In this document: positions 18,067 through 26,404 of the stretch, piece after piece
How the letters are laid out: every line of letters starts with the position of its first letter
Position numbering within the stretch: position 1 is the stretch's first letter
Origin: a virus
DNA length: 26,404 bases
Virus record (IMG/VR): IMGVR_UViG_3300033141_003134
Location: 36,860 to 63,263 of that record
Strand: one strand, 5' to 3'
The notes under the pieces: generated by a model
Databases searched by the model: none
Told to the model about the DNA's origin: nothing
What the model saw: the letters and a program-made list of their open reading frames with translations, nothing else
Made by a program: the position numbers and the translations under genes

Positions 18067-18364
18067 AATACGTAGTTTTTGGTCAAAAAAGGCTCCAGTA
18101 GAGGGCAAAAAAGAGCAAATTGACCCTGAAGTGGTTAAAAAAGCGATAAAAGTAGCCAAAAAACAGGTAAAATATAAGAATTATAAGGCAAAAGACATAT
18201 TAAAGTACTTTGGAAAATTGATTTCCGGCGGTGATGGAACGTGCAATGTATGTGGTAAAGATATATTAAAAAACAACGCGAAGCAGACAGTGTATTATTG
18301 TAGTAAAGATTGCAGACGCGCTAGGCACAATAAGGTGCGGGTACAGGGGGTAACAAATGGATAA
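18020..18364 (+). CDS. Zinc-ribbon protein of unknown role
   Basis: 114 residues. After a basic N-terminal half (IRKIAAKIRSFWSKKAPVEG) a zinc motif TCNVCGKDILKNN and YYCSKDCRRARHNKVR (CxxC...CxxxC) appears at about 85-110. It overlaps the GT2 gene by 47 bases; ACGAGGC lies before the ATG. Single zinc ribbons of this type occur in RNA- or DNA-binding phage proteins. A start further in is possible, as the N-terminal part overlaps another gene. Confidence 0.55.
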   Translation: MWSRSKFTFIRKIAAKIRSFWSKKAPVEGKKEQIDPEVVKKAIKVAKKQVKYKNYKAKDILKYFGKLISGGDGTCNVCGKDILKNNAKQTVYYCSKDCRRARHNKVRVQGVTNG

Positions 18365-20429
18365 ACATGTAAGTTCACCTACATCAAGCTATACCAGTTC
18401 TTCTATTCAAACAAGATCACTTTTGACGGGAGTTAGTGGGTTCGTAGGAAGTCATTTGGCAGAATATTTATTGTCTCAAGGCGAAGAAGTGCACGGTATT
18501 AAGCGCTGGCGCTCACCATTAAAGAATATTAGTCACATTTTACCTAAAATAACTTTACACGAAGCTGATTTATTAGAGAAAGATTCTTTAACTAAAGTAA
18601 TAAAGGAAGTCAAACCAGATTTCATTTATCATTTGGCTGCTCAAAGTTATGTACCTTATTCTTTTACTGCACCGGATTTAACTATGGCTGTTAATGCCGG
18701 TGGGACACAGAATCTATATGAAGCAATCATACAATCAAAAGTTAAATCTATTAAGAGAATACATTTTGTATCTTCCAGTGAAGTATATGGTCAAGTGTCT
18801 AAACAAGATGTACCCATAAAAGAAACACAAGCCTTTAACCCTCAATCCCCTTATGGGGCCAGCAAGGCTTCTGCTGATACTATTAGCAAAATGTTTTTTG
18901 ATGTATATGGTTTACCTATTATAAGGACACGGGCGTTTACGCATAGTGTTAGTAAGTGGACACCTGTTATTTTACGTGATTCTATTAGTGGCTTAATAGA
19001 TATAAAATATATTTCTGAAATTAGGCAAAAGCAAAAAACCGGTGGTTATTTATCAGGTAAGATGTTAGATAATGATACACAAATATGGGATATGACCCGT
19101 CATAATTTAGAGGTATGGAATGATAGGTGTTGGACTAAAATAAAACATCTTTCTTGCCACCCTATAAAAAATAATAAATTATTAGAAATATCCTGTAGGC
19201 AAGGAGTAGTTGATGCTACTGATAATCATTCAATTATAAATAATAAAAATGAGCCAATTCAAGCAAGTTCTTTAAAAAATAAAGATAAAATAAAAATTAC
19301 TAAATTACCAAAAGTTGAAAAAACAATTATCCCAGAAGAATTAGCATGGCTATATGGTCTCTTTGTTGCAGAAGGAACAGTAACTAATGGAAAATTAAAA
19401 ATATCAAATAAGAATATTGATTTATTAAAAAAATGTAAAAGAATATTTTTACAATATTTAGCCATAGATAGTACAATTGATTTTTATGAAAAAGAATCTA
19501 TATATACTTTAAGAATAAGAAAACCTTTTGAAATTTCAAAAAGATTTTATAAAGATTGTTATGCTAGTGATAAAAATAAAAAAATACCTCAAATTGTACT
19601 TAATGCTAAAAAAGAAATTAAAGTTGCTTTTTTAGAAGGTTATAATTGTGGCGATGGAGATAATAATAACAACGTTTGCAGTAAATTTTATAGATTTAAG
19701 ACAAAATCACCTATTTTAGCTTTAGGTTTATGTTGTTTTATAGAAACAGTTTTGAATGTAAAGTACAAAATACATGTTGAACATAGAAAAGATAATCGTT
19801 ATTTTGAAATTAGAGCGTTATCTCAAACTAATTATTCAGGATCAGAACATAAAAAGGCTAAAAATAAAAATCATTTTTTAAAACCTGATAATGAAATAGT
19901 TAAAATTACTCAATTAAAATACTCTGACGAAGTATGGGATTTTGAAACAGAAAATCATTGGTTTCATGCAGGAATTGGAGGTAATATCGTACACAACACG
20001 GGACCTAGACGCGGTGAAGTATTTGTTGTATCAGCCTTCGCCAAACAAATAGCAGAGATTGAAGTAGGTAAGAAAAAAGAGCCTACAATTGAAGTAGGCA
20101 ATCTTGAATCTATTCGCACATTTATGGACGTTAGAGATATTGTTAAAATTTATTATGAATTAATTAGAAAAGGTAAGCCCGGAGAAGCATATAACATTGG
20201 CGGCAATACCACTATGACAATAGGTGGTATGCTTAACAAACTTCTTTTATTAAGCGATATTTCTATTATACCAGTAGAAAAAAGAAATTTACTTAGAAAA
20301 GCAGATGTTACTTTGCAAATTCCAGATCTTACTAAGCTGAACAAATTAATAACATTCGACCCATCAATCTCCTTCGAAAAAACTCTCTCGGATATCTTGG
20401 AATATTGGAGAAAAGAGGTAAGAAAATGA
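18357..20429 (+). CDS. GDP-mannose 4,6-dehydratase-like enzyme with in-frame intein
   Basis: 690 codons: an extended SDR enzyme of 339 residues interrupted by a 351-residue intein. N-extein: Rossmann TGVSGFVG (24-31), HLAAQSY (92-98), SSSEVYG (139-145) and YGASK (Y166, K170), ending RTRAFTH (196). C-extein resumes TGPRRGEVFVVSAFAKQIAE, so splicing restores the conserved RAF(T/N)HTGPRRGE motif of the GDP-mannose 4,6-dehydratase / NDP-sugar epimerase group. The enzyme would make a 4-keto-6-deoxy sugar, the substrate of the UER-type and RfbH-type enzymes nearby. AGGGGGTAACAA precedes the ATG. The first ~20 residues are Ser-rich and may not all be native. Confidence 0.9.
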   Translation: MDKHVSSPTSSYTSSSIQTRSLLTGVSGFVGSHLAEYLLSQGEEVHGIKRWRSPLKNISHILPKITLHEADLLEKDSLTKVIKEVKPDFIYHLAAQSYVPYSFTAPDLTMAVNAGGTQNLYEAIIQSKVKSIKRIHFVSSSEVYGQVSKQDVPIKETQAFNPQSPYGASKASADTISKMFFDVYGLPIIRTRAFTHSVSKWTPVILRDSISGLIDIKYISEIRQKQKTGGYLSGKMLDNDTQIWDMTRHNLEVWNDRCWTKIKHLSCHPIKNNKLLEISCRQGVVDATDNHSIINNKNEPIQASSLKNKDKIKITKLPKVEKTIIPEELAWLYGLFVAEGTVTNGKLKISNKNIDLLKKCKRIFLQYLAIDSTIDFYEKESIYTLRIRKPFEISKRFYKDCYASDKNKKIPQIVLNAKKEIKVAFLEGYNCGDGDNNNNVCSKFYRFKTKSPILALGLCCFIETVLNVKYKIHVEHRKDNRYFEIRALSQTNYSGSEHKKAKNKNHFLKPDNEIVKITQLKYSDEVWDFETENHWFHAGIGGNIVHNTGPRRGEVFVVSAFAKQIAEIEVGKKKEPTIEVGNLESIRTFMDVRDIVKIYYELIRKGKPGEAYNIGGNTTMTIGGMLNKLLLLSDISIIPVEKRNLLRKADVTLQIPDLTKLNKLITFDPSISFEKTLSDILEYWRKEVRK
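18945..19997 (+). mobile_element. Intein with LAGLIDADG endonuclease (351 residues)
   Basis: Residues 197-547 of the dehydratase gene. It starts at Ser (SVSKWTPVILRDS, block A), has block B VVDATDNHSI (TxxH), two LAGLIDADG helices (LAWLYGLFVAEGT and VAFLEGYNCGDGDNN, blocks C and E), block F EVWDFETENHWFHAG and ends GNIVHN before Thr+1. All residues for class 1 splicing (Ser1, block-B His, penultimate His, Asn, Thr+1) are present, so it is probably active. The DNA is visibly more A-rich than the flanking exteins, a sign of separate origin. The homing endonuclease would cut intein-free alleles of the same gene. Confidence 0.93.
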
Positions 20430-25153: not shown

Positions 25154-25716
25154 ATATTTGGAGTCATTCTAATTCAGAATTGATTAAGATAATGGAGATA
25201 ATTCTACGCACAAAAAGAAAAACATTTATTGAGATAGGTTGTTTTAATTTTAATATGACATCTATTTTTGCTTTAATGAGCGAACGTGATCCATTGATTA
25301 TTGCTAATGATATTAAAGACCATTTTCCAAAAAAGAGAGAGGTTTTGACAGACCTACTCGGTAACTCTTTTAAATTTGTATTAGGTGATAGTAAAGATAT
25401 TAAAACTATTGATAAAATAAGATATACTTTACTCGGTAGAAAAGCAGATATATTATTTATTGATGGTGATCATGCCACCGAAGTGACTGAAGCAGACTTT
25501 AAAAATTACTGCAATATGGTTTCTCCAAACGGGTATATTATCATACATGATGCAAGTTTTTTTACAGTTTCTTCAACAAATGATTATACCGAACTTCACT
25601 CAAAGCTTATCCGCCCTTGGTTCATTCAAAAATTGAAAGAGGGGATAAGATTAAATCTTTACTTTGAAGGCAATGCTAAGCTGGCATATATTAAAAGAGG
25701 GGATTTAGATGTCTGA
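25150..25716 (+). CDS. Class I SAM methyltransferase (second paralogue)
   Basis: 188 residues. IEIGCFNFN (27-35), IIANDIKDHFPKKRE and ILFIDGDH with GYIIIHDASFF show the same Methyltransf_24-like fold as the gene at 22711-23388, lacking its first ~6 residues and about 30 residues of C-terminus. Duplicates in the same operon suggest two different methylation positions or acceptors. The ATG overlaps the previous stop. Confidence 0.78.
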   Translation: MNIWSHSNSELIKIMEIILRTKRKTFIEIGCFNFNMTSIFALMSERDPLIIANDIKDHFPKKREVLTDLLGNSFKFVLGDSKDIKTIDKIRYTLLGRKADILFIDGDHATEVTEADFKNYCNMVSPNGYIIIHDASFFTVSSTNDYTELHSKLIRPWFIQKLKEGIRLNLYFEGNAKLAYIKRGDLDV

Positions 25717-26404
25717 AAATATAATATTCGAAAACAAACAGTTTAAATCAATAGTACCACAGGAAGAAGTGCTTAATACTTTCATTGTGCCGGTTATTTT
25801 TAATTACAATGGCGTAGCTAGGTGCATTGAAACTATTCATAAATATAATGATAAATACAGGATAATTTTAATAGATCAAACCAAGGAAGGTAAATGCCTT
25901 TATTTAAAAGATCTGGTTGACGTTTATATGAAAGTTCGTAGGAATTTGGGTTTTGCAAAGGCTATGAATTTAGGCGCCAAGATAGCCACGACACCATATA
26001 TTACACTCTGTAATGATGATATTGAATTTATAAATAAACGCTGGTTTTATGCGATAAAAGAATTATTTGAAAAACAACCGCATTTAATGGGTATCAACCC
26101 TGCTTCGGTTAGGGAGATTGGGCCAGATAGGTCTAAAGATTGGATGCCCTACAAGGAAGAATACAGCGAAGAAGATTATAATTATTTATTGACACCAAAG
26201 AAAGGATTTAACCCCACGCACATATTTGAAGGGACGATGATGTTTTGCACTGTATTCAGGAAACAAGCTTTTGAGTTAGTAGGCTATCTTGATGAGGGCT
26301 TTTATCCGGGTTGTTTTGTTCCAAAAGGTAAAGTTTTAATGGGAGATTTAACTTATAAAAATATAGAGGATGTTTCTAAAAATGATAAAGTAATATCTGG
26401 GAAC
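25709..26404 (+). CDS. GT2 glycosyltransferase interrupted by an intein (partial)
   Basis: The 232 codons seen begin MSENIIFENKQFKSIVPQEE. GT2 features: TFIVPVIFNYNGVARCIETI, ILIDQTKEG, RRNLGFAKAMNLGAK and the metal site TLCNDDIEFINKRW (D103, D104). At residue 201 the usual GT2 run DEGFYPG, normally followed by a GGED-type acidic motif, is replaced by Cys202 and an intein-like N-terminus. The C-extein must lie beyond the window end. Its start overlaps the methyltransferase stop by 8 bases. Confidence 0.85.
   Translation, partial: MSENIIFENKQFKSIVPQEEVLNTFIVPVIFNYNGVARCIETIHKYNDKYRIILIDQTKEGKCLYLKDLVDVYMKVRRNLGFAKAMNLGAKIATTPYITLCNDDIEFINKRWFYAIKELFEKQPHLMGINPASVREIGPDRSKDWMPYKEEYSEEDYNYLLTPKKGFNPTHIFEGTMMFCTVFRKQAFELVGYLDEGFYPGCFVPKGKVLMGDLTYKNIEDVSKNDKVISGN
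26312..26404 (+). mobile_element. Start of a second intein (Cys1 type, runs off window)
   Basis: Translation from 26312 reads CFVPKGKVLMGDLTYKNIED then VSKNDKVISGN, which follows the Hint block-A pattern (Cys1, a hydrophobic strand and K(I/V)xxVxxxDKV). It interrupts the GT2 reading frame right where the conserved acidic motif should follow FYPG. It is unlike GT2 sequence and unlike the first intein (Cys1 rather than Ser1), so it is a second, independent element. Splice and endonuclease blocks are outside the window. Confidence 0.75.

Follow-up and report, generated by a model that had tools for sequence, protein, structure and literature searches.

The phage locus and its interrupted enzyme

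The stretch of DNA considered here, called the window, comprises 26,404 nucleotides, bases 36860-63263, and forms the last 26.4 kb of the 63,263-base IMG/VR record IMGVR_UViG_3300033141_003134. The record encodes a terminase large subunit, portal, head-protease protein, tape measure, minor tail protein and primase; as the terminase, portal, tape measure and tail genes indicate, its source is a tailed phage. In the window, a rightward-oriented block that encodes sulfotransferase, glycosyltransferase, DegT aminotransferase and methyltransferase also includes an open reading frame (18357-20429, forward strand, as are all other window features given below) of 690 amino acids with no internal stop, in which an enzyme gene is split by an insert of 351 residues (18945-19997) lying between His196 and Thr548. 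These coordinates, lengths and borders, first proposed in a sequence-only reading of the locus, prove exact base for base. The same reading spoke of a host gene for glycan synthesis; the gene belongs to the phage and not to a bacterial host. In the relative L089, the genes at the end and at the start of the window contig are neighbors. The genome is thus probably circularly permuted, with the contig end marking a point within it where assembly broke off.

The upstream portion of the enzyme (N-extein, 18357-18944) is the NAD-binding half of a protein of the GDP-sugar 4,6-dehydratase/reductase type, with the motifs TGxxGFVG, S-S-E142, Y166xxxK170 and FTH196, and the downstream portion (C-extein, 19998-20429, stop included) is the substrate-binding half, beginning T(+1)GPRRGEVF. 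Pfam GDP_Man_Dehyd (PF16363) gives a discontinuous match covering residues 1-196 and 548-690 (E 1.7e-71). The predicted spliced product has 339 amino acids. The cofactor motif TGxxGxxG, the Ser/Thr-Glu-Tyr-Lys active site and the substrate loop that typify an extended short-chain dehydrogenase/reductase (SDR) are all present and invariant in the homologue alignment. The solved structure nearest to the spliced product is that of GDP-D-glycero-D-manno-heptose 4,6-dehydratase (7us5, E 2.1e-60), followed by those of GDP-6-deoxy-lyxo-hexulose reductase (2pk3, 1e-59) and the GDP-mannose 4,6-dehydratase (GMD) of Escherichia coli (1db3, 1e-43). As the NCBIfam GMD equivalog TIGR01472 (cut-off 415 bits) is not reached by the 147.3 bits obtained with the interrupted precursor, the enzyme can be placed only in the wider GDP-sugar dehydratase/reductase group and not as a GMD. 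The earlier designation "sugar-nucleotide dehydratase" is right at the superfamily level; the nearest solved enzymes include examples of either activity, 4,6-dehydratase or reductase.

The insertion site lies in the substrate-binding loop of the enzyme. Relative to 1db3, the junction falls between His186 and Glu187 (position counted by hand), just ahead of the SPRRG loop, and of the 289 ten-residue segments of the enzyme compared across 136 uninterrupted homologues, the one at the junction is the 8th most conserved, in agreement with the earlier description of the HTGPRRGE motif as conserved.

Identity of the insert

The insert begins SVSKWTPVILRD and ends GGNIVHN, with TGPRRGEVF following directly, and its two junctions are identical across 12 alleles, which makes its boundaries exact. 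An alignment spanning the whole insert could be assembled for ten members (three viral sequences and seven loci from bacterial metagenome-assembled genomes, or MAGs), and the residues expected of a working intein are invariant throughout it. Splicing block A (18945-18983, SVSKWTPVILRDS) supplies the nucleophile Ser1, block B (19203-19238) the TxxH motif (Thr92, His95), block F (19929-19976, EVWDFETENHWFHAGI) Asp332 and His338 among other invariant positions, and block G (19977-19997, GGNIVHN) the penultimate His350 and terminal Asn351. Between these lie the endonuclease motifs: block C (19341-19379), the first LAGLIDADG helix LAWLYGLFVAEGT with the catalytic acid Glu143; block D (19569-19592), the K-IP motif DKNKKIPQ with invariant Lys212 and Pro215; and block E (19626-19661), the second LAGLIDADG helix AFLEGYNCGDGD with the catalytic acid Asp237. 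The N-terminal nucleophile, block B TxxH, block F and C-terminal His-Asn, together with a +1 Thr in all 12 intein alleles, are the features of a class 1 intein.

Profile and structure comparisons point the same way. Pfam LAGLIDADG_3 matches the insert at 35.3 bits (E 1.4e-8; cut-off 22.5), and Intein_splicing matches the single sequence at 26.1 bits (E 8e-6), under its curated 35.8-bit cut-off. A profile built from the ten members reaches the VMA inteins (7qsu, 2.8e-15) and the DNA polymerase B (PolB) intein PI-PkoII (2cw7, 9e-12). An AlphaFold model of the intein (pLDDT 81, pTM 0.82) places the LAGLIDADG helices at residues 131-143 and 223-237, and Foldseek returns 7qss, 7qsu, 7qst, 2cw7 and PI-PfuI as top matches (E 3e-20 to 4e-15). 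The HINT fold is recognized through 7qss (E 2.8e-20) and also through the mini-inteins 5o9i and 5o9j, and the two-helix LAGLIDADG (DOD) endonuclease, with its invariant Glu143 and Asp237, through I-DmoI and PI-PkoII. The whole precursor was also modeled, at a pTM of 0.55 that is too low to read domain packing. A search of the whole record with Intein_splicing and TIGR01445 detected neither intein of the window (a second is described below); as TIGR01445 misses both yet finds five others in the phage G001, such a negative profile result is weak evidence. The LAGLIDADG_3 match, the invariant motif residues and the two modeled helices thus bear out the sequence-only claim of an intein with splicing blocks and a LAGLIDADG endonuclease. 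A chance origin of these features is excluded, and alignment and model together identify the insert as a class 1 intein carrying a homing endonuclease of the LAGLIDADG type, predicted both to splice and to cut.

The best fold matches, the archaeal VMA inteins (TliVMA, 7qss/7qsu; PhoVMA, 7qst), share with the window intein the HINT domain and a two-motif LAGLIDADG endonuclease, but they occupy another host protein and site, are only about 17-19% identical to it, and begin with Cys1 (mutated C1A in the structures) rather than Ser1. PolB inteins, such as PI-PkoII and that of the huge phage LR756508, are likewise of the LAGLIDADG type, but they interrupt a replication protein at a different site. 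The LR756508 intein, which is unannotated, aligns over all 351 residues at 26% identity and ends HN before TDS, again with a +1 Thr; it was the only relative, and a distant one, returned from the phage collection by an intein-only query. Its alignment to positions 194-548, initially a candidate for a second dehydratase intein, was rejected because the reading frame is PolB.

That the element is a decaying relic, with its endonuclease or splicing domain dead, is very improbable given that the motif residues are all intact and invariant, that the 690 codons are open and that dN/dS in the endonuclease region is low. The latter values (0.04-0.23) are rough estimates because dS is saturated; they are consistent with an active nuclease.

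Occupied and empty sites

The insertion site is empty in all 80 other viral dehydratase homologues fetched and in all 59 bacterial homologue loci read (Methylomirabilota and Omnitrophota), so that 139 uninterrupted homologues with alignable reading frames contain no insert and show seamless extein continuity. The sequence-only reading had allowed that close homologues might carry the segment as an ordinary domain; all 139 lack it. An empty site would read TTTACGCAT joined to ACGGGACCTAGACGCGG; in the intein-free homologues the +1 position is occupied by Thr, Ser or another residue. Two apparent mini-intein carriers (L023 and L025), proposed from a long tblastn span, were rejected as ordinary uninterrupted dehydratases.

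The 12 alleles with an intein at the same site derive from three phages (the window phage, the 219-kb phage of locus L004 and the 66-kb phage of L005) and nine bacterial genomes, assigned to Syntrophaceae, Desulfobacteraceae, Nealsonbacteria, Omnitrophica and, in five cases, Rokubacteria. The carriers thereby span at least four phyla (Desulfobacterota, Patescibacteria, Omnitrophota and Rokubacteria), with the caveat that the bacterial carriers are MAG contigs, for which binning errors are possible. The genes beside them, encoding glycosyltransferase, Wzt-type transporter, transketolase, epimerase and methyltransferase, are those of ordinary glycan clusters. Within the sampled phyla the intein is sparse (5 of 95, 1 of 193, 1 of 198 and 1 of 287), and intein-free relatives can be close to carriers, at 78% for phage L004, 79% for L092 and 85.5% for L111.

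Extein position 197, the +1 residue, is Glu and not Thr in 11 of 30 intein-free Methylomirabilota alleles (L116-L145). Glu at this position would be incompatible with splicing and may represent either a natural block, that is, a resistance allele, or a scar. Such natural Thr-to-Glu alleles in Rokubacteria offer a route to the study of homing resistance.

The position of the insert raises the question of a role in regulation. At a highly conserved loop, the intein parts the Rossmann half and the Ser-Glu-Tyr-Lys center from the half that binds the substrate, and it is plausible, as suggested earlier, that enzyme activity requires splicing. That the intein acts as a post-translational switch, its conditional splicing timing the sugar pathway during infection, is nonetheless very unlikely, as no conditional feature was identified, most homologues do without an intein, and ordinary homing selects such sites anyway (Swithers et al. 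2009, PMC2814812).

Evidence for mobility

Placed on an extein tree of 100 rows, the 12 intein alleles require 11 state changes (gains or losses), of which strongly supported branches force at least eight; labels shuffled at random average 11.5, so that the intein is as scattered as by chance. The tree was built by a quick method, in it the window extein forms a long branch that is itself uncertain and pairs with a second long one, and losses could explain some of the 11 changes. Topologies of intein and extein conflict directly: in AU tests, the extein tree is rejected by the intein data (p 4.65e-5) and the intein tree by the extein data (p 5.7e-43). Phage L004 has the sister of the window intein (support 99.3/98), and these two inteins are 73% identical where their exteins are 53% identical; against six carriers, the window intein is conserved 12-20 points above the extein. 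This excess is not universal, being found in 31 of 66 pairs, and the argument for mobility therefore rests on the tree conflict and the empty sites. In phage L005, an intein of 39% GC lies inside a gene of 57% GC.

These data bear on an alternative in which the intein descended vertically along with the dehydratase gene and owes its patchiness to repeated loss. In its favor, one pair looks like the co-transfer of gene and intein: phage L004 and the Nealsonbacteria locus L093 have equal intein and extein identities (66.3 and 66.4%) and share two neighboring genes, an E1-dehydrogenase/transketolase cassette. Against a vertical history stand the mutual rejection of the two trees, the excess conservation of the window intein relative to six carriers and the foreign, AT-rich composition of the intein in the GC-rich phage L005. 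As the sole history, vertical inheritance is strongly disfavored and has only a small chance of being correct. Both modes of transfer, of the gene with its intein and of the intein alone by homing, seem to occur.

The preferred reading, which is very probably correct, is that a class 1 intein of full length, bearing a homing endonuclease of the LAGLIDADG type, invaded a GDP-sugar 4,6-dehydratase/reductase-type gene of this tailed phage. Trees and empty sites together show recurrent horizontal acquisition of the dehydratase intein, and its recurrence at one spot in unrelated phages and at least four bacterial phyla indicates an element that jumps between them; the direction of any transfer can only be inferred. 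In the proposed sequence of events, the splicing domain would fold within the precursor, and an N-O shift at Ser1 would turn the His196-Ser1 bond into an ester. The N-extein would then move to Thr(+1) by transesterification, Asn351 would cyclize, and an ester-amide shift would release the active enzyme of 339 residues. The freed endonuclease would cut intein-free alleles at the conserved coding sequence for FTH/TGPRRG, and repair of the cut allele would copy the intein in; the repeated invasions of the site support such cutting indirectly. Phages and bacteria with related glycan-synthesis genes would provide the meeting ground, which could account for one intein family across phages and several phyla.

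Related inteins and novelty of the host protein

A second intein begins at the very end of the window, in a family 2 glycosyltransferase gene. Its N-extein (25709-26311) matches Pfam Glycos_transf_2 (E 1.5e-11) and has uninterrupted relatives in L089 and L090. The intein, with a block-A-like start CFVPKGKVLMGDLTYKNIEDVSKNDKVISGN (26312-26404), is inserted after EGFYPG with a first Cys, just ahead of the conserved SGEDY motif, and is cut by the contig end; the site is empty in L089 (EGFYPG/SGEDY) and L090. This very short fragment has no profile match.

Inteins homologous to the dehydratase element also occur in canonical GDP-mannose 4,6-dehydratases of Rokubacteria (L113) and Omnitrophota (L114 and L115), with E values to the intein profile of 4.1e-25, 1.5e-52 and 1.7e-47, respectively. 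They occupy the same loop but lie one residue downstream, following FNHE, starting with Ser or Cys and, where the end is seen, closing with HN before SPRRG, and their host enzymes belong to another branch of the family; for L113 the contig stops short of the intein's end. The substrate loop is thus a repeated intein target.

Surveys assign nearly all phage inteins to nucleic-acid proteins; proteins that bind nucleic acid account for all hosts in mycobacteriophages and 84.9% in bacteria (Kelley et al. 2016, PMC5050341). Metabolic hosts are known in general (PMC7765530). The earlier view that the host protein is unusual accords with the mycobacteriophage survey. Mycobacteriophage inteins (TerL, RecB, portal and ThyX) likewise home, occupy conserved functional motifs and, for ThyX, are exchanged with bacteria (PMC5050341); they differ in that their hosts all bind nucleic acid, whereas the host described here is a sugar-nucleotide enzyme whose intein carriers span several phyla. 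No report of an intein in a sugar-nucleotide or glycan enzyme, dehydratase included, was found in the open literature. Within that literature, the insertion site and host protein are new for inteins, the kind of intein itself is known, and the spread of the dehydratase intein is unusually broad and well documented.

Repeated entry into a nucleotide-sugar enzyme of phages and of several phyla makes this a clean case in which to test whether phages carry inteins, and it suggests that the element needs conservation of the coding sequence and not a replication role of the host protein. The window has two inteins within 8 kb, one in the dehydratase and one in the glycosyltransferase, and canonical GMD carries a sister intein one residue away. 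It is possible, if on balance doubtful, that surface-glycan genes are an overlooked intein niche common to phages and bacteria, and that phage glycan cassettes are a platform moving inteins between phyla.

Inteins are also found elsewhere in these genomes. The 219-kb phage with the closest intein (G001) has at least five more (L176, L177, L178, L179 and L100/L180), in UvrD-like helicase, polymerase III alpha-like, RNA ligase-like, clamp loader-like and papain-like protease genes, those in L177 and L178 seemingly split over two reading frames. The portal gene of L089 (6795-8291) has an apparent intein, TTRA followed by CYSEDTETLTENGW, within which the contig stops; the window phage has an uninterrupted portal at this point. 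One Rokubacterium (G009; L108, L109 and L110) has LAGLIDADG inteins in a radical SAM-like protein, a MoxR-like ATPase and, twice, a DnaB-like helicase. Separately, long Ser/Thr-repeat (TSTTST) stretches mark many structural genes of the window phage (L007 1-738, 8930-10129 and 16209-17594, among others) and of its relatives L089 and L090; these stretches may be glycosylated by products of the glycan gene block.
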